In this document: one piece after another, positions 2,716 through 32,970 of the stretch | How the letters are laid out: each line of letters opens with the position of its first letter | How positions within the stretch are numbered: position 1 is the stretch's first letter | From: a virus | Direction: 5' to 3' (one strand) | Virus record (IMG/VR): IMGVR_UViG_3300014819_000010 | Coordinates: 1 to 32,970 of that record | DNA: 32,970 nucleotides | Notes under the pieces: model-generated | Seen by the model: only the letters and a program-made list of their open reading frames with translations | The model's database searches: none | What the model was told of the DNA's origin: nothing | Program-made: the position numbers and the translations under genes

Positions 2716-5700
2716 ATGTCAAATGATTTGCCAAGAAAAGTTACTGAAACTTTAGCTGCTCAAAATAAAAGAACCGTATATATTGTTTTGTCACCAACAG
2801 GAGATAACAATACGTTTAAGTTTAATTCCGATGATTATAATTCGGAAACAAAAGAGCTAGCTAATGCCATGACTGTTGGCACAATAGCAGAAAATACTAA
2901 TGAATATGGAGTAGCTACAGAACGTACAGAAATTTCTCTTAAAAGAGAGGATGGTTTTCCAGTAGGAATATCTGATAATGCGCCAGGTGGAGATGGTTCA
3001 GCATTTCTTCAAAGAGAAACTGTAGGACTTGGTGTAAAAGGTGGCCGTTCTTATTTTATTGATATATCAGATAGTAATTTTTTAGATATTAGTGTAATAA
3101 AAGGAAAATCTGATGCTCCAAATGATCATACAAGAGATTATGATGAGTTATTGGCTGAAGTGAATAGTGATAACAATTCAGCTACCACTTTAGGTGGTAG
3201 CGTAGCTACAACACAATTCAGAAAAAATACGTATTACCAAGATAATAGATTTTTACCTAATAACGTTATAGAAAAAGATTCTAATGCTGGAAAAAATGCA
3301 ATACAGTTAAAATTAGGTTCTTACACAAAAGCTTCAAATCAGCAATCAACTGGTAATCCAAATGCAGACGGCAATTTTCAACTTAATCAAGACATATTAA
3401 GTTCACTTGGTTCTCAGGTTACATTAAAAGCCAGCGGCGAATATTACATTCCCAAAACAATGTCAAAGCAAAGTGAAGTTTTATTGGCTCAGGCGGCAGC
3501 TATAGCGCCTAGTTTAGCTCGGCTGGGATTACCGGTACCATTTAATGCAATGAAGGCTGGAAACGTTTTAGAGGAAGTAAATTCTGAATTTGCAAACTCT
3601 AATTTGCCTGCACTTATAGAAGAAGATGGAAAACTTAGTTTTGGAAGCACTAATAACTGGTTAGTATTATTTGATGGATTTCAAACGCAATTTACATTAC
3701 CAGCCATAGCTGTACAGTTAGGTGCAGTTGCAGCAGTTATTTCGGCTACTGCTGAAGCTTATGATAAAAATAATGCTGGCCTAATCAGAGCAGGATTTTT
3801 AGAATATTTCGGAATTGCATATAACGGAGATCCCGAGTCATCAGCAATATTTGCTGCCGCAGTCGCTGAGGCGGTAGCTCTCGGTGCATCTGCGGCAGTT
3901 CCCGGCGTATCTTTCTTTGTTAAAACTAAACTAACAGAGGGAACTGGATGGTACACTGTAACATTACGAAAAATAATAAGATTGATTGCGGCGAGTACGT
4001 ATGGAACTGTTAGTAACATCACAAATCAAGTTTCAAATACATCAGTGAATAATATTACTAGCAACTTTAATATTGATAATGCAAACCTTATAGGCTCTCT
4101 TGGATCTGCTGTAAATCTAGCTAATAATAGCATAAACGCATTTGGCTTAATTAAACTTCTTGGAATATTCAAAACACTTGGCGCTACTTCCAAGTACACA
4201 ACTGGTACGTATGCAGGTCGTCCAGTGTCGAGTCGTGGTTTAAATAATGATAGCAAATCTTTTAAACCAAAAATGAAATCATATATCGATTCTTGTAGCG
4301 ACAACATGGACGGAGATAATCAAAAAATCAATGTTAAAGCTTTGATTAAAAAAGATCGATTAACTGAAACATATGGTTTGGGCAGTAATGCGGATAAAAA
4401 TCCATTGGCATGGGGTACGTCAACAACCCCGTCGCAATATATACTTCCTTCAAACATCAAGACAATAGGTGGTCAATTAAATGCAAGAAATGCTGCCACT
4501 GTATTAACAGAATTAAATGACATAGGAAGTTCTAATAAAACAGAAATAAATGTAGTTGATGTTGGTAGGTTAGGTTCTGATCTTGTGCGAGAACTTGAAG
4601 AGCAACTTGAATCTAGTTATATGCCATTTTATTTTCATGATTTACGTACTAATGAGATTGTTTCATTTCATGCATTTTTAGAATCCAGTAAAGATGGATT
4701 TCAAGCTGAATGGAACAGTGTTTCTTCTTACGGAAGAGTTGAACCGATTCATATTTACAAAGGTACAACTCGAGATATAAGCGTTACTTTCTTTTGTGTT
4801 TCTACCAACAATAAAGATCATGATAACATGTGGTGGAAAATTAATAAATTAGTTACTATGGTTTATCCACAGTATACAAAAGGAAGAAGTCTTACAACTT
4901 CCGATGGTAAAACATTTGTACAACCATTTTCTCAACTTCCTGGTAGTTCTCCAATCATAAGAATGAGATTGGGTGACGTTTGGAAATCAAATTATAATAA
5001 ATTTAATGCATCTAGATTATTTGGATTAGCGGATTCTGATTTTAATATTGATCCAGAAAATGCGTCTAGAACAAATACAAATACGTATAATACTGTTCTG
5101 ACAGGTAGCCAAATTATACAATTTCAAACTGATTTAAAAACTAGATTACAAAATCATATTTATGATATTGGTGATGAATTTATAATTAATTATTTGCCTG
5201 ATTATTATTCAATATCATATGTTTTTGGCAAACCAAATCCACCTGGCGGACCAATCGGAGAAGTTGTCAACTTCACTGAAACTGGTGGTCTAGGTGGAGC
5301 TGGCACTTTATATGCGCCCCTCAATTTAAGTGAAGGAATTTATAATTTACGTGTTAAGGAAGTTAATAAAAATTTTGAAGGCACAGATTTATATGTTGAA
5401 TATCAAGTAGAAATACTTGACGCAGCGAGTAGAGTAATCGATTCTGATGTTCTTATTAGATTCAGAAATCCAAGATATTCTGATAGAAGAGAAATAGATC
5501 GTATACGAACCCGTGACATTGTTGCGATTGGCGAAGAACCAATAAGAATTTATGATTCTAGACAACTTGAAACCCAGTTAAATACTGAATACGTTCGAAG
5601 AAAAGTTGAAGAACGTGTTAATCAAATCGTAAATCAAGATGGTAATCGTGCGGAACAGGAAAGAGAAGAGTTGACAGCAAAATCGGAATTATTAAGAAAA

Positions 5701-13409: not shown

Positions 13410-13790
13410 TCAGATTTTGTATCCCAATTTTCTCAAAGCTTTTATTACAAATTCTGTATCACCTTCCTCGCCATGAGCCAGACCAGTAAGCTGATCAGCC
13501 AATTTTAGCGCAAATCGCTCGCCCAACTTTTGTTTAGCCTTTTGAAATAGTTCATCTCTAATTTCAAGATTGATCGTCTCCCAATCTTTTTCTGCCAAAG
13601 CTTGGGAAAGTATATTAGATGGTCGAACATCTTCAGCTTTCAAAGCAGCTTTAAATGCCCTGTATTGATCTGGAGATAACGCTCTAATTGAGGCTAAAAG
13701 TTCTTCTACTTGTGGGGAACGGTTTGCTCCAGCCATTTCTTCTACTTGTTCACGGATAAGCTGTTTAAGCTGTTTTACTGTAATCTTCAT
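13410..13790 (-). CDS. MKIT...LIREQVEE leader protein, paralogue 1 (126 aa)
   Basis: The protein starts MKITVKQLKQLIREQVEEM, almost identical to the first 18 residues of the 115-aa minus-strand protein at 14986-15333. The two differ completely after that. The common N-terminus is an amphipathic helix, as short leaders or docking tags often are. The remainder is helical and charged (SPDQYRAFKAALKAEDVRPS). AAAGGA lies about 9 nt before the ATG. The gene runs against its neighbours and carries its own promoter-like block and terminator. The function is unknown; packaging or compartment targeting through the leader is a speculation. Confidence 0.75.
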   Translation of the reverse strand: MKITVKQLKQLIREQVEEMAGANRSPQVEELLASIRALSPDQYRAFKAALKAEDVRPSNILSQALAEKDWETINLEIRDELFQKAKQKLGERFALKLADQLTGLAHGEEGDTEFVIKALRKLGYKI

Positions 13791-14985: not shown

Positions 14986-15333
14986 TCACTCGAAGTGAAA
15001 TATACCAGCGGCCTTTTTTAATTCTGCTCCTATTTTCGAATCTCTGTTCTGGACGACTTTTAAAACATCGGAAAGTTGATCGTAAGAGTCATCTCCTTCT
15101 CCAGTTTTTGTCGCATTTTTTATTGCCCTAATAAGCTTTGCAGGTGTGGCGCCTCTATTATAGCTGTCAATTACTGCTTTTGCTAGTTCTCCATAGACTA
15201 TTAGGTCTTCTTGACCGCTTTTGTCTGATTCCAAAGCTGATTTAAACCTTTCTACTGCGGTCTTTTCTCCTGTGGTTGCTTCTTCTACTTGTTCTCTGAT
15301 GAGCTGTTTAAGTTGTCCTATTGTAATCTTCAT
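14986..15333 (-). CDS. MKIT...LIREQVEE leader protein, paralogue 2 (115 aa)
   Basis: The protein begins MKITIGQLKQLIREQVEEA, sharing its leader with the protein at 13410-13790. The body differs: it is acidic and helical (ERFKSALESDKSGQEDL, SDVLKVVQNRDSKIGAEL), with no known motif. AAAGG lies 7 nt before the ATG. The same leader in front of an unrelated body, within an otherwise duplicated cassette, suggests that the leader is functional while the cargo is exchangeable. Confidence 0.75.
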   Translation of the reverse strand: MKITIGQLKQLIREQVEEATTGEKTAVERFKSALESDKSGQEDLIVYGELAKAVIDSYNRGATPAKLIRAIKNATKTGEGDDSYDQLSDVLKVVQNRDSKIGAELKKAAGIFHFE

Positions 15334-15409: not shown

Positions 15410-15454
15410 CGTTTAGATGCGGTTGGTATATGATGATTGGAAAGAAGGAAACAC

Positions 15455-16195
15455 ATGGCAAAACCAACAAAAAAATCAGGAGATACAGTAGCAACAGTTC
15501 AAGATACAGTAATAGACGATTTCTCATCAGACCTTATCAAAGCAATCAATAAAGAACACAATGATAAGATCGCTTTCAATCTTGGTGTAGATGATGCACC
15601 AACTCATGTTCATCGCTGGATTTCTACCGGCTCTCGTCAGCTTGATTATATCATTGCTAATCGTAGAAATGGTGGTATGCCAGAAGGACGTATTGTAGAA
15701 ATACAAGGTCCACCAGGTATCGGTAAATCAACCCTAATGGCTCAAATCGCCCGCTCAACTCAAAGAATTGGTGGTATCGCCGTCTATATTGATACCGAAA
15801 ATGCAACAAATCCGGATACTCTTGCAGCTATGGGTGTTGATGTGGCAAGAAGATTCGTATTCGTTCAGTCTCCATGCACAGAGGAAATTCTTTCTGTAAT
15901 AGAAAGCACTATCCTCAAAGCTCGCACAATGACAAAAGATGTTCCCGTAACCGTTATATGGGATAGCGTCTCTCAGTCCTCGCCAAAGGCTGAGTTAGAA
16001 GGCGATTATGACCAAAATACAATTGGTCTACAAGCCCGTGTTCTTTCTAAAGGCATGAGAAAGATTGCTAACGTTATTGGCGGTCAAAAGGTTCTATTGG
16101 TGCTCGTATCACAGCAGAGAATGAAGATTGGAGTAATGTTTTCCGATCCGTGCGTAACTCCAGATACGAAAATCAAAATTCGCAGAAGGAAATGA
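15455..16195 (+). CDS. recA: RecA recombinase, N-terminal half fused to a short N-intein
   Basis: Residues 1-232 are the N-terminal part of a RecA recombinase: Walker A GPPGIGKST at 85-93, the catalytic Glu region YIDTEN around 115, Walker B VTVIWDS at 165-171, and SQQRMKIGVMFSDP at 219-232, the conserved RecA stretch leading into DNA-binding loop L2. It then runs into CVTPDTKIKIRRRK, an intein N-terminal block, and stops. ATG 15455 is chosen over TTG 15437 because GAAGGA lies just before it. RecA forms filaments on ssDNA and drives strand exchange. On its own this polypeptide lacks the C-terminal third, which is encoded at 16276-17172, so activity should require protein trans-splicing. Confidence 0.92.
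   Translation: MAKPTKKSGDTVATVQDTVIDDFSSDLIKAINKEHNDKIAFNLGVDDAPTHVHRWISTGSRQLDYIIANRRNGGMPEGRIVEIQGPPGIGKSTLMAQIARSTQRIGGIAVYIDTENATNPDTLAAMGVDVARRFVFVQSPCTEEILSVIESTILKARTMTKDVPVTVIWDSVSQSSPKAELEGDYDQNTIGLQARVLSKGMRKIANVIGGQKVLLVLVSQQRMKIGVMFSDPCVTPDTKIKIRRRK
16151..16192 (+). other. N-terminal half of split intein (14 residues)
   Basis: CVTPDTKIKIRRRK is a typical intein block A, with Cys1 as the splicing nucleophile, directly after the RecA residues SDP. The segment is very basic (Lys/Arg in 6 of 14 positions). A TGA stop follows at 16193. Such a short N-intein is unusual; most natural split inteins break after about 100 residues. Confidence 0.85.
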
Positions 16196-16270
16196 GCATG
16201 GAACAGAGATAATGGTAGAACATTATGCAAAATATGTCACCATAAACAACCAACACATGGAACAGGAGCC
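16196..16270 (+). pseudogene. Remnant of an HNH homing endonuclease C-terminus
   Basis: In the frame of the RecA N-half, right after its stop, 25 codons read AWNRDNGRTLCKICHHKQPT plus HGTGA. The N-G-x-T-L-C-x-x-C-H pattern is the hallmark end of HNH endonucleases. No start codon or N-terminal half remains, so only the last part of the domain survives. The distal part overlaps the Shine-Dalgarno of the next gene (AGGAG at 16264-16268). Confidence 0.65.
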
Positions 16271-16275
16271 CTAAA

Positions 16276-16644
16276 ATGGAAGAATATATAGAAGAAGAAA
16301 TAACATTTAGAGAGTTGGCAAAACGATTAGGAATAGAAGATTTGGATACTCCAGAAGAGTATGATATCAAAGAAGAAGGATATCAAATCTTATCATACGA
16401 TGAAGCAACTGGAAAAGAAGTTTGGCAAGCTTTAGAAGCATATGTAGTTAAAAAGAATGCTGCCGAACATTATCAGCTTAATACATTACATGGTACTGCC
16501 GATCATAAAGTCCTTCTTGGAAAAGAATATGTAAGGCTCGCAGATCATCCGGGCGCAGAGTTGGTTAAACAGCCAATCCAAGTTGTTGATTGCCAAGTAG
16601 CAAATACTCATTGTTACCTTGCAGAAGGTCAGATCAATCACAAC
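16276..16644 (+). other. C-terminal part of split intein (123 residues)
   Basis: The acidic start (MEEYIEEEITFREL) faces the basic N-intein. Block B is present as LHGTADHKVLL with the Thr-x-x-His pair. Blocks F and G are VVDCQVANTHCYLAEGQINHN, with penultimate His, terminal Asn and Thr as +1 residue. Together with the 14-residue N-part this forms a complete 137-residue mini-intein without an endonuclease domain. Confidence 0.88.
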
Positions 16645-17172
16645 ACGACAACATCTGGTGGTATGGCAATCCCCTATTCATCATCCGTTCGTATCCGTCT
16701 TGATGGTGGCTCACCTATCAAAGATAAAGATGAAAACGTTATAGGGATTAATGTAACGGCTAAGACTATTAAGAACAAAGTTGCCAAACCTTTCCGTAAG
16801 GTAGGTTTCCAGATAATGTTCGGTAAGGGTATCTTTGAGAATGATGAAACTTTCGATCTTCTTCGTGAATATTGTAAGAACTCAAAGAGCGGCGTTATGG
16901 TAAACAACAAATCCGTTATGATAGCTGGTGATGCAGCATGGAAAACGTTTACTGTAATTGATCTTAAGACCGGCGAAGTTGAAACAGAAGTTAAGTTCTA
17001 TAAAAATGAGTTTACGCAGAAAGTATTAAACAAACCAGAATATTCAGATTATATTAATGCCCTGATGGATGCAGCCCTCATCATAGGCAAGGACGACATC
17101 ACTGAAAGCCATTCCACATTTGAGGGGATTGCAGAAGGTGATGTCAAAACCGCTGATGAGTTAAGCGCCTGA
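16276..17172 (+). CDS. recA: C-intein fused to RecA C-terminal half
   Basis: Residues 1-123 form the large C-terminal part of an intein. Residues 124-298 continue RecA from TTTSGGMAIPYSSSVRIRL, the RecA region after L2, through KNKVAKPFRKVGFQI to an acidic tail. AGGAG at 16264-16268 lies 7 nt before the ATG, so this half is translated independently. Spliced to the N-half it gives a 407-residue RecA, with the junction P-TTTSGG matching the usual P-ETTTGG apart from Glu replaced by the obligate Thr+1 nucleophile. Two or more sequence errors would be needed to read the locus as one gene, so a genuine split is the better reading. RecA identity is firm; splicing activity is inferred. Confidence 0.9.
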   Translation: MEEYIEEEITFRELAKRLGIEDLDTPEEYDIKEEGYQILSYDEATGKEVWQALEAYVVKKNAAEHYQLNTLHGTADHKVLLGKEYVRLADHPGAELVKQPIQVVDCQVANTHCYLAEGQINHNTTTSGGMAIPYSSSVRIRLDGGSPIKDKDENVIGINVTAKTIKNKVAKPFRKVGFQIMFGKGIFENDETFDLLREYCKNSKSGVMVNNKSVMIAGDAAWKTFTVIDLKTGEVETEVKFYKNEFTQKVLNKPEYSDYINALMDAALIIGKDDITESHSTFEGIAEGDVKTADELSA

Positions 17173-21479: not shown

Positions 21480-24293
21480 ATGAAGACATTAGAAGAATTA
21501 AAAAACGAAGGCGAAGCACCAAGCTGGTTAACGAGCGATGCATTTCAAATGTTGCGAGGCGGTTATTTGTGGAATGATGAAACTCCTAAGCAGATGTATC
21601 GTCGTGTAGCAGCTTCTGTTGCTAAATCTCTAAAGAAGCCAGAATTAGAAGATAAGTTCTTTGACATTATGTGGAAGAACTGGTTATGCCCTTCTACTCC
21701 AGTATTATGCAATGCTGGAACAACTCGTGGTTTACCCATAAGCTGTTTTTCGTCCTATATGGCCGATGATACTTATGAAATTTTAGAAACCCTACAGGAA
21801 GTAGCAATGCTATCCAAGTATGGTGGTGGAACAGCTATCCATGTTAATGATGTTCGTGCCAAAGGAACACCAATCTCTAAGGGAGGACACTCAGATGGTG
21901 TAGTTCCATTCCTTAAAATGGCAGATAGCGTTATCCTTGGTATCTCTCAGGGTTCTACTCGTAGGGGTGCTTGTGCTGCTTATATTGATATTGAACATGG
22001 TGATTTTGACGAGTTCCTTCAGTCTCGTAGACCAACCGGCGATACCAATCGTCAATGCCTTAATCTTCATCATGGTGTTTGCGTCTCAAATGCATTTATA
22101 GACAAAGTAAAAGCTGGAGACACAGAAGCCCGTAGACGCTGGAAAGAGCTGATTAAGAGCCGTGTAGAGACAGGAGAGCCCTATGTTTTCTTTACGGACA
22201 ATGCTAATGATCAAGCGCCGCCTGTATTAAAAGAAACTGGTATTAAGCTTAAAGGCTCAAACCTTTGCGTAACCGGAGATCAGATAGTTGTAACTTCAAA
22301 AGGATTACGTAATGTCCTTGATCTTGTTTCTTCTGGTGAGGAATTGACTTTATTTGATGGAAGTAAAAAAGTAAATGCTTCTCCAATGAAGCTAATAGAA
22401 AAAAATGCTCCTGTATATCGTATTACTACAAAATCTGGACGAACACATGACGTTACATCATATCATAAAGTAAAAACAACTCGTGGAATGATTGCTTGTG
22501 AGGAGCTTAAAGATGGAGATAAAATCTTTGTTCAACGCAATGAAGGTTTGTTTGGCAATATACACAAGCCGGAAATGGCATTCTTATTAGGTCTTTATCA
22601 TGCAGATGGCACACAGACCGACAAATATGTTTATATTGACATTTGGGAAAATGATTTTAAACTTCGTTCAGAGATAGAAAATTCAATACAGAAAGTTTAT
22701 TGTGAAGAGAATTGGCTTGAATATGATATTAAAAATCAAACTGGCGTAAGTGTTGGTAAAAGAAAAACAAAAATTCCAACTTTTATTAAACAAAATACTG
22801 GATCATCATCTGTTCAAAAAATCCGTCTTGGATCACATAAGTTAAAACAATTTGGTTTTAAAAAAGGTGTAATACCAGACTGGATTTATCAAGGTGATAA
22901 AGAAACTATTTCTCAATATCTAAGAGGGCTTTACATCGCAGATGGAACAATAAACATCAGCAAATCACATGGAAATCCTCTATATCTTTCACTAGCTTCA
23001 ATTGATCGTGATTTTCTTGGAAAGATACAAATAATTCTTTCTAATCTCGGAATTGAATCAAAAATATATATAATGAGAAAAGCAGGTAAAAGTTTATTGC
23101 CTGACGGAAAAGGCGGTAGTAAATATTATGATACGAAAGACTGTTGGCGGTTAAATATTGGCAATAAAACTGATGCAATAAAGTTTGATAAAATTACAGG
23201 ATTTCTTGCATATAAAGGAAAATCTCTTCAAGAAAGAAAGTATAGAGATAATACAAAAAAATATGACGAAGTGAAGTCAGTAACTTACTTAAACAATCAA
23301 GATGTATATTGCACAACGGTTGATTCAAAAGAACATGTTTGGGTTTGTAATTCTTTTATAACTTCAAATTGTTCAGAAATCTTCCTACCAACAGATAAGG
23401 ATCACACCTTTGTTTGTTGTCTTTCTTCCCTTAACCTTGCAAGATGGGATGAGTGGAAGGATACAGATACGGTTCAACTATCTGTATGGTTCCTTGATGG
23501 TATTATGGAGGAGTTTATTCAAAAGGCGGCTAACTTGAGAGGATTTGAAAGAGCACTCAATTTTGCTCGTAAATCTCGTGCTCTCGGTCTTGGTGTCCTC
23601 GGTCTACACTCATACTTCCAAAAGAATATGATTGCATTTGATAGCCTTCAAGCATATCTCCAGAATAAGATTATATTCAAGAAGATTAGAGAAGAAGCTG
23701 AGTTGGCTACAACGGCTCTTGCTACTGAATATGGTGAACCAGAGTGGTGTCGGGGTCATGGTAGAAGAAATGCTACTCTTATGGCTATAGCTCCAACTGT
23801 ATCAAACTCCCTTATTGCTTCTAACGTATCTCAGGGTATTGAACCATGGATTGCCAATGCATTTGCTCAAAAGAGTGCAAAAGGAACGTTCGTAAGAAGA
23901 AATCCAGAACTTGAGAAGCTTCTCCAGAACATTGGACAAGATACCGATGATGTTTGGGGTTCTATTCTTAAGCATGATGGAAGTGTTCAGCATTTAGAAT
24001 GCTTAACCGCTGAACAGAAGGAAGTATTTCTAACTGCCAGAGAGCTAAATCAGTTTGCTATTATTAAGTTGGCTGCTGAAAGACAGAAGTTTATTGATCA
24101 AGGTCAGAGTATTAATATCTTCTTCCCAGCCAATAGCGATCCAAAGTATATCAATCAAGTTCACTTGGAAGCAGCTAATAGTGGTCTTAAGAGCCTTTAT
24201 TATTTACGTTCTACATCCGTTCTTAAGGCAGAGCAGAATAGTAATGCGGTATACAAGAGAGAACTAACAGAATGTAGTTGGTGCGAAGGATGA
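21480..24293 (+). CDS. nrdA: Class I ribonucleotide reductase, large subunit, with intein
   Basis: It reduces ribonucleotides to deoxyribonucleotides. The 937-aa product contains a 368-aa intein, so the spliced enzyme is about 569 aa, clearly shorter than typical NrdA (about 750) and without an N-terminal ATP cone. Spliced residues visible: Cys89 (ISCF) as redox Cys, NLC-SEI at 261-266 with the thiyl-radical Cys263 directly after the intein, Cys278 (VCCLSS) as its redox partner, the radical-relay tyrosines in LYYLRS, and C-terminal ECSWCEG for electron delivery. GIEPWIANAFAQKSAKGTF is typical of phage NrdA. Starts 14 nt after nrdB. Confidence 0.94.
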   Translation: MKTLEELKNEGEAPSWLTSDAFQMLRGGYLWNDETPKQMYRRVAASVAKSLKKPELEDKFFDIMWKNWLCPSTPVLCNAGTTRGLPISCFSSYMADDTYEILETLQEVAMLSKYGGGTAIHVNDVRAKGTPISKGGHSDGVVPFLKMADSVILGISQGSTRRGACAAYIDIEHGDFDEFLQSRRPTGDTNRQCLNLHHGVCVSNAFIDKVKAGDTEARRRWKELIKSRVETGEPYVFFTDNANDQAPPVLKETGIKLKGSNLCVTGDQIVVTSKGLRNVLDLVSSGEELTLFDGSKKVNASPMKLIEKNAPVYRITTKSGRTHDVTSYHKVKTTRGMIACEELKDGDKIFVQRNEGLFGNIHKPEMAFLLGLYHADGTQTDKYVYIDIWENDFKLRSEIENSIQKVYCEENWLEYDIKNQTGVSVGKRKTKIPTFIKQNTGSSSVQKIRLGSHKLKQFGFKKGVIPDWIYQGDKETISQYLRGLYIADGTINISKSHGNPLYLSLASIDRDFLGKIQIILSNLGIESKIYIMRKAGKSLLPDGKGGSKYYDTKDCWRLNIGNKTDAIKFDKITGFLAYKGKSLQERKYRDNTKKYDEVKSVTYLNNQDVYCTTVDSKEHVWVCNSFITSNCSEIFLPTDKDHTFVCCLSSLNLARWDEWKDTDTVQLSVWFLDGIMEEFIQKAANLRGFERALNFARKSRALGLGVLGLHSYFQKNMIAFDSLQAYLQNKIIFKKIREEAELATTALATEYGEPEWCRGHGRRNATLMAIAPTVSNSLIASNVSQGIEPWIANAFAQKSAKGTFVRRNPELEKLLQNIGQDTDDVWGSILKHDGSVQHLECLTAEQKEVFLTARELNQFAIIKLAAERQKFIDQGQSINIFFPANSDPKYINQVHLEAANSGLKSLYYLRSTSVLKAEQNSNAVYKRELTECSWCEG
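22266..23369 (+). mobile_element. Intein in NrdA with LAGLIDADG endonuclease
   Basis: The element spans 368 in-frame codons. It starts with Cys1 (CVTGDQIVVTSKG), has block B around HDVTSYHKVKT, two LAGLIDADG motifs (FLLGLYHADG and YLRGLYIADG) and ends VWVCNSFITSN followed by Cys+1. The penultimate residue is Ser instead of the usual His. The two DOD motifs with acidic residues suggest an active homing endonuclease. Insertion is directly before the active-site Cys of RNR. Confidence 0.93.
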
Positions 24294-31856: not shown

Positions 31857-32970
31857 ATGGGCTTTAAAATACCAACAAGAGAAGAGTTAGAAATGTCAGA
31901 AAAAAAATCAAAAAAGAGGAGTAGAACAATGACAAAATTAGGAAAGGGATTAGATGTTGGAACATCATTTGTTGTTCTTGCATCTGAACAAGAAGAAGGA
32001 ACAGTACAATATAAAGATTTTCGTGACGCATTTTATGTAATAAAACCATCAACTCCAATCGCAGCAAAGATGATTGAAAAAGGTCTTACCGGTAAAACCT
32101 TTGTAAAAGACGTAGATGGTTCATTTATCCTACTTGGTAAGGACGCTATTGAAAAAGCCATAGAACGTAATGATAGCGCCAAGCGGCCTATGTATCGTGG
32201 TGTTGTTTCTAGCAAGGAAAAAGATGCTCGTAAAGTTTTATCATATATTCTTAAGGAAGTAGCCGGAACTCCTACTGAACAAGGAGAAAAAATCGTTTTT
32301 TGCATTCCAGCACAACCAATCGATCAAGATGATGAAGATTTTGATGTTGGCTATCATGAAGATGTTGTAAAAAAAGTTTTATCTGACGCTGGTTATACTC
32401 CAAGAGCTATCAATGAGGCAGAAGCCCTTTGTTATTCAGAACTTGAAAATGATGATTATACCGGTATTTCGCTATCTTGCTTAATTCCAGGTACTAAAGT
32501 ATATACTAAAAATGGCATTGTCAATATAGAAAATGTAAAGATTGGGGATTTGGTTTTTACTCATAAGGGTCGATGGCGTCCTGTAACAAATGTAATAACA
32601 AAACAATTTGAGGGAACGGCTACAAAATTGCAATTGCAAGGTTATTCAAATACATGCGAAGATTACAAATTTGTTGACAATCACGAATTATATGTGTGCC
32701 GCAATAATAAATGGCAATGGATCGGTTGCGAAGAAATTGAGGTTGGTGACATTGTAGGTGAACCCATACAGCAGCAAGATCGTTTTGGAAAAGGAGAGCC
32801 TGGAATTACTATATGTGAGCGTACAACAAGCTCAAATACATATTCAAAAACTAGGATTGCAGCAACTCCAAATGTTCAAAGATTAATTGGATATTTTCTT
32901 GGAGATGGAAGTGTTAATGAAGCAGAAGGTTGTATTCAATTTGATTTTTCAAAAAATGAAGAAAACAACA
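31857..32970 (+). CDS. Actin/Hsp70-fold ATPase interrupted by an intein (partial)
   Basis: The gene runs off the right edge. Two in-frame starts have ribosome sites: 31857 (GAGGA 5 nt upstream) and 31929 (AGGAG 7 nt upstream, MTKLGKGLDVGTS). The second gives the usual N-terminus; the first adds a Lys-rich 24-residue segment. Phosphate-1 motif GLDVGTS and connect-1 motif INEAEALCYSEL resemble Hsp70 and ParM-type proteins. Phosphate-2 begins GISLS and is cut by an intein. Such proteins hydrolyse ATP and may form filaments for DNA segregation or act as chaperones. The job here is unknown. Confidence 0.8.
   Translation, partial: MGFKIPTREELEMSEKKSKKRSRTMTKLGKGLDVGTSFVVLASEQEEGTVQYKDFRDAFYVIKPSTPIAAKMIEKGLTGKTFVKDVDGSFILLGKDAIEKAIERNDSAKRPMYRGVVSSKEKDARKVLSYILKEVAGTPTEQGEKIVFCIPAQPIDQDDEDFDVGYHEDVVKKVLSDAGYTPRAINEAEALCYSELENDDYTGISLSCLIPGTKVYTKNGIVNIENVKIGDLVFTHKGRWRPVTNVITKQFEGTATKLQLQGYSNTCEDYKFVDNHELYVCRNNKWQWIGCEEIEVGDIVGEPIQQQDRFGKGEPGITICERTTSSNTYSKTRIAATPNVQRLIGYFLGDGSVNEAEGCIQFDFSKNEENN
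32478..32970 (+). mobile_element. Intein in the actin/Hsp70-like ATPase, partial
   Basis: The element begins with Cys1 (CLIPGTKVYTKNGIVNIENV), the common block A, followed by KIGDLVFTHKGRWRPVTNVI and a B-block-like VDNHELYVC. It continues with the start of a LAGLIDADG endonuclease (LIGYFLGDGSVNEAEG). It continues past the window end, so the splice site at its C-terminus and the +1 residue cannot be seen. Confidence 0.88.

Follow-up and report, generated by a model that had tools for sequence, protein, structure and literature searches.

The virus record IMGVR_UViG_3300014819_000010 of IMG/VR comprises 55,224 bases, of which we analysed bases 1–32970 (the window). Within this window we identified a phage recA gene that an atypically split class-1 intein has very probably divided in two. 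We read the locus as a homing element that retains its split intein but not its endonuclease. This reading draws on the anatomy of the locus, on intein boundaries and a split that can be checked in relatives, on an endonuclease relic between the two gene halves, on empty and occupied alleles of the same recA, and on signs of transfer and of purifying selection.

A phage recA gene divided within an intein

The first of the two genes encodes RecA residues 1–232 followed by 14 intein residues (CVTPDTKIKIRRRK) and a stop codon; the second, which has its own AGGAG ribosome-binding site and ATG, encodes 123 further intein residues and the remainder of RecA. An earlier note on this DNA had described this arrangement, and every figure in it was correct on re-reading. 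The N-half open reading frame (ORF) spans 15455–16195, with the Cys1 codon at 16151–16153, the final codon of the N-terminal intein half (IntN) at 16190–16192 and TGA at 16193–16195. The C-half ORF spans 16276–17172 and begins 83 nucleotides (nt) past the last intein codon, or 80 nt past the N-half stop. Together the halves make an intein of 14 + 123 = 137 residues within exteins of 232 + 175 = 407 amino acids (aa). Because the two halves lie in different frames (16276 − 16151 = 125, no multiple of 3), they cannot be read as one ORF.

A scan with the RecA N-half found 23 contigs, and in 10 of these a near-identical RecA of 407–408 aa runs uninterrupted through MFGDP-TTTSGG with zero intein residues. 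The uninterrupted GDP-TTTSGG segment fixes both intein boundaries, giving a Cys start, an Asn end and Thr at +1. As expected of a class-1 intein, removing the insert restores a conserved host protein to the residue, as these 10 intein-free alleles attest, and the class-1 residues are in place: Cys1, GTADH in block B (Thr74 and His77 of the C-terminal intein half, IntC), D...H in block F (Asp105 and His112), the final His-Asn (His122, Asn123) and the +1 Thr. All are conserved in four distinct relatives, including the Cys1, block-B Thr/His, penultimate His and terminal Asn that the earlier note had singled out in its 137-residue intein. The joined halves match TIGR01445 in 4/4 distinct types (E 0.003–0.004), the window reaching 18.2 bits (E 0.0036) against a cut-off of 24.5, and the C-half alone gives no match to this profile. 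PF14890 matches IntC weakly and colinearly at 16309–16524 and 16573–16644, and a match to this profile at E 0.33 is likewise under the cut-off. A PDB sequence search returned nothing relevant, IntC gave only chance matches among annotated phages (E 8–9), and the IntC of a relative, L008, was found in none of 84,980 prokaryote species. Separately, tblastn matches of RecA that start within IntC, in Hafnia phage yong2 and Pseudomonas phage Y8, were set aside: the annotation of yong2 shows an unbroken recA, and searching with just IntC retrieved no phage.

The same C-half occurs in six further contigs (L003–L008), 5/6 of which also have a split N-half with 14–16 intein residues; the L006 contig starts inside the tail of the endonuclease gene described below. 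Since the split is present in other contigs, it is not a sequencing error. The relatives' IntN sequences read CV[ST]PDT[IT]IKIRRKIVG and CLSPDTKINIRKRIV, each followed by a stop, and the partition of charge noted earlier at the break point, basic on the N side and acidic on the C side, is seen in all relatives too. With an IntN of 14–16 aa, an IntC of 123 aa, separate ORFs and a split that is kept in further contigs, the element very probably belongs with the naturally atypically split inteins. The coordinates of its parts are collected in Table 1.

Table 1. Parts of the split recA locus, in window coordinates
Feature	Position	Strand	Basis or remark
Ribosome-binding site AAGGA, N-half	15445..15449	+	5 nt upstream of ATG 15455
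N-extein, RecA residues 1–232, C-terminal end ...VMFSDP	15455..16150	+	PF00154 E 1.4e-40; 92–99% identity with relatives
IntN, block A: N-half of 14 residues, CVTPDTKIKIRRRK, then stop	16151..16195	+	Relatives' N-halves 14–16 aa; TIGR01445 matches joined halves only
Deletion junction, 2-nt overlap AT	16198..16199	+	Left side matches L003 to TGAGCAT, right side matches L003 HNH gene from ATGGAACAG
HNH endonuclease relic, last ~30 codons (WNRDNGRTLCKICHHKQPTHGTGALKWKNI, stop)	16198..16291	+	Profile match; overlaps C-half by 16 nt
Ribosome-binding site AGGAG, C-half	16264..16268	+	7 nt upstream of ATG; within endonuclease relic; identical in L003–L005
IntC, 123 residues, MEEYIEEEITFRELAKRLG...GTADHKVLLG...VVDCQVANTHCYLAEGQINHN, ending GQINHN	16276..16644	+	Sequence; weak colinear PF14890 matches
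C-extein, RecA residues 233–407 (TTTSGG..., +1 Thr at 16645) and stop; 175 residues	16645..17172	+	PF00154 E 8.6e-14

HNH endonuclease genes in the gap and a relic in the window

In L003, L004, L005, L007 and L008 the gap between the two halves holds a gene of 260–270 aa (~265), which PHROGs labels as an HNH endonuclease (E 1.6e-9 to 4.8e-12). Its start overlaps the N-half stop in L004 and L007, and its 3′ end overlaps the C-half start in L003. Among L003, L004 and L007 the C-terminal part of the HNH protein is under purifying selection, with a nonsynonymous divergence (dN) of 0.03–0.06 and a synonymous divergence (dS) of 0.21–0.39.

Only the end of the endonuclease gene is left in the window. 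When the four intact endonucleases were made into a profile, it matched 16190–16288 (E 9e-18, model positions 232–264 of 264), its sole match in the 55-kb contig. The distance from N-half stop to C-half start is 806 nt in L003 and 80 nt in the window, so that 726 nt have been lost. The 80-nt gap is thus the remnant of an endonuclease gene, which accounts for the intein being split at this place. The ribosome-binding site of the C-half, which lies inside the endonuclease 3′ end, was spared by the deletion. We also considered the repeat CATGGAACAG (16197–16206 and 16256–16265) as a target-site duplication and rejected it, as both copies fall within the endonuclease 3′ end shared with L003, save base 16197, where the first copy opens.

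The N-terminal regions of the HNH proteins are of several types, L004 and L007 being alike and L003 and L008 standing apart from these, and the C-terminal region is nearly identical among L003, L004 and L007. Differing N-terminal types joined to a shared C-terminal region suggest that recombination may have taken place within the endonuclease gene. A related HNH gene is found in L036, L037 and L038 (about 3204–5354) between two ORFs that resemble halves of one Ro60/TROVE-like gene, where no intein was seen.

Mobility, selection and competing explanations

Occupied and empty alleles of this recA are almost the same DNA. The occupied L008 shares 99.6% identity on the N side and 99.4% on the C side with the empty L016, L017, L020 and L021; therefore the element recently entered recA of this kind. 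Between the window and L004, dS is 0.18 for IntC as against 0.57 and 1.36 for the flanking RecA parts, and this lower divergence of IntC supports the view that the element may have passed horizontally between phage lineages. The earlier note had proposed that a split RecA would place recombination under the control of trans-splicing. We found no support for such control: 10 close relatives have the same RecA without an intein, and the behaviour of the element is that of a mobile parasite. What stood of that interpretation was the atypical split with a tiny N-half; the origin of the gap as an endonuclease relic had been missed.

The mechanism that we propose would run as follows. The RecA N-half carries the first intein beta strand with Cys1, and a separately translated gene supplies the remaining 123 intein residues together with the second part of RecA. 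The halves would associate through pairing of the basic IntN strand with the acidic residues at the beginning of IntC. Trans-splicing of the two RecA halves, which we predict from their sequences, would then proceed via Cys1, block-B Thr/His, His-Asn and the +1 Thr to give a 407-aa RecA laid out as in the intein-free alleles. From knowledge of E. coli RecA, we take the GDP-TTTSGG joint to lie in the L2 DNA-binding loop, and because the joint is inside this segment, RecA function should need splicing. In the relatives, the free-standing HNH enzyme, for which both activity and target are predictions, would probably cut intein-free recA at GDP-TTTSGG, and repair would then copy half-intein, endonuclease and half-intein together as one unit. 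In the window phage, the 726-nt deletion took nearly all of the endonuclease gene; the split intein that is left has no homing enzyme of its own.

Several results weigh against this account. The matches to intein profiles all fall under the curated cut-offs. An AlphaFold model of IntC alone, built from five alignment rows, had a predicted local distance difference test (pLDDT) score of 44, too low for the model to serve as a search query. A small profile comparison with three other inteins scored 16.8, which 1/60 column shuffles equalled, with only 10 residues aligned, and was uninformative. The exact junction DNA was found in no other contig when IMG/VR was scanned, and the endonuclease-less state of the RecA element is known from one contig only. 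Two RecA replacements close to the joint, Q223M and G230S, occur in the window and are absent from its relatives.

These two replacements, and the single contig, are also what might be expected of a dead intein, in which the gene is decaying after endonuclease loss and the phage either lacks RecA or has one that acts as two unspliced pieces. Against such decay, neither ORF is broken, both ribosome-binding sites are in place and no catalytic residue of the intein has been lost. IntC differs between the window and L003 by 7 synonymous and 0 nonsynonymous changes, the window's own branch shows 3 synonymous changes in IntC and no others (small numbers in both cases), and dN/dS for the RecA parts is 0.08–0.13. 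These values show the signature of purifying selection on the window's split intein. Moreover, the insert interrupts the conserved GDP-TTTSGG segment, so unspliced pieces are unlikely to function. We regard a dead intein as unlikely.

Joining of the halves at the RNA or ribosome level, by an intron or by bypassing of the 83 nt, would instead yield a contiguous intein precursor. The window's short gap would suit this, as would the HNH gene that occupies it in the relatives, a feature of mobile group I introns too, but no intron RNA was found in the gap of the window or relatives (Rfam gave no intron match in the window, L003, L004, L007 or L008) and the RNA structure of the gap is not unusual (z −0.10). 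The C-half's own ribosome-binding site and start are kept across relatives, and bypassing is implausible over the 800 nt of the relatives' gap, which leaves this explanation very improbable. An assembly or sequencing artefact, behind which the true locus would hold a complete endonuclease gene or a frame with no break, would fit a junction found in one metagenomic contig and nowhere else, but there is hardly any chance of it, as the split itself is present in other contigs, the 2-nt junction overlap is too short for an assembler k-mer join, and both sides of the junction have their own differences from L003.

Some further features of the RecA and of the contig are recorded here. RecA residue 230 (window 16142–16144) is Ser in the window and Gly in all relatives (MFSDP vs MFGDP); we take it to correspond to Gly204 of E. 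coli RecA, presumably the residue changed in recA430. A second intein, contiguous, lies in the ribonucleotide reductase large subunit gene at 21480–24293 (CVTGDQIVV...NSFITSN, followed by CSEIFL) and contains a LAGLIDADG domain (PF14528, E 2.5e-17). A third (CLIPGTKVY...FLTIHN, followed by C; PF14890, E 1e-7) is held by an ATPase-like gene, of Hsp70/ParM type by appearance, which spans window 31857–32970 and continues to contig base 34069 (L046 1–1099). Several proteins encoded on the (−) strand, at window 13410–13790 and 14986–15333 and at L047 4949–5839, share a similar N-terminal peptide, M-K-I-T-[VIM]-x-x-L-K-x-L-I-x-E, possibly a common leader or sorting signal.

Comparison with known split inteins and homing elements

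Atypically split inteins with an IntN of about 15–25 aa are already known (PMC11923092), and the shortest characterized as of 2023, that of PolB16 OarG, has 15 aa (PMC10189870). The RecA IntN of 14 residues is one shorter, and the intein-free alleles are available as controls. PolB16 OarG resembles the RecA element in its tiny IntN (15 vs 14 aa) and long C-half; it differs in having Ser1/Ser+1 rather than Cys1/Thr+1, an IntC of 168 aa and a DNA polymerase B host. The main text on PolB16 OarG makes no mention of a homing endonuclease (PMC10189870).

The relatives of the window share their layout with fractured genes, in which a host half with a half-intein, a free-standing endonuclease gene, and a half-intein with the other host half follow one another. 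Such 'fractured genes', with split inteins and a free-standing endonuclease gene between the half-inteins, were reportedly described by Dassa et al. in 2009. The window itself is a derivative and not a full member, as the intact endonuclease present between the halves in five relatives is absent from it. Phage MIJ3 PolB is a fractured gene with an endonuclease between its half-inteins (PMC6892783); in the genes as we read them it is broken at the usual split site, its IntN having about 110 aa and its endonuclease, a different one, 560 aa, whereas the RecA element has its 260–270-aa HNH enzyme and is split after residue 14–16 rather than near residue 100, the usual place of the endonuclease. 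Endonuclease domains inside inteins are all stated to lie at one conserved site (PMC6801210). The RecA element has a free-standing endonuclease gene at a site other than this one. The RecA intein of Mycobacterium tuberculosis, by its description, shares the RecA host but is a contiguous single-chain intein with its own endonuclease domain, unlike the phage element. In open-access papers we found none that treats UvsX and a split intein together; Dassa et al. 2009 and later closed papers were outside the scope of this search.

A parallel is seen in AceL-TerL, a biotechnology tool, which is like the RecA element in its short N-half, its long C-half with its own start, its phage gene and its set of endonuclease states. 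It is unlike it in its host, the terminase large subunit (TerL), and in its IntN of 25 aa, split ~10 residues further in; the endonuclease families differ and no sequence kinship was seen. We searched IMG/VR for the AceL-TerL family with its C-half and found 13 loci, the best match (97% identity, IntN CVYGDTMVETEDGKIKIEDLYKRLA) bearing out the query sequence. A gene stands at the split in three of them: HNH in L069 (PF13392, E 4.7e-12), and GIY-YIG-like in L072 (PF01541, E 0.012) and in L064, which has no Pfam match and was so classed on visual inspection because it resembles L072. Five loci are split without an endonuclease gene (L062, L063, L065, L066, L071) and two are fused into one ORF (L067, L068). 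Over 22 nt the linker in the fused loci is identical to the tail at the 3′ end of the endonuclease gene in L069, and the end of the L069 protein, EKKSWTNV, resembles those of L064 and L072. L062, itself of AceL-TerL type, shares the last 9 nt before its C-half start with the L064 tail, a short match that is weak alone. A 14-nt copy of the C-extein start (TGTGAGTTCTTAGG) follows directly on the IntN stop in L064 (861–874, exact), L069 (3394–3407, 12/14) and L072 (3404–3417, 11/14), and exceeds all shuffles in L064 only; a corresponding copy was looked for in the RecA loci and was not present.

Read directly, these TerL states would reflect endonuclease loss that leaves a scar, as in the RecA window. 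The opposite order, with an endonuclease gene entering a contiguous TerL intein and adopting its sequence, could also have produced them. The parallel suggests that free-standing homing endonuclease genes may dock at the N-terminal split site. We lean slightly towards the general view that atypical splits would arise when such genes dock near the intein N-terminus, a second site beside that of the in-frame domains; endonuclease-less forms such as the window RecA and AceL-TerL would then be relics, some of which re-fuse with endonuclease DNA as a linker (L067, L068). A single phage group here includes recA sites that are empty and occupied ones with and without the endonuclease gene, which makes it possible to test how atypically split inteins arise.
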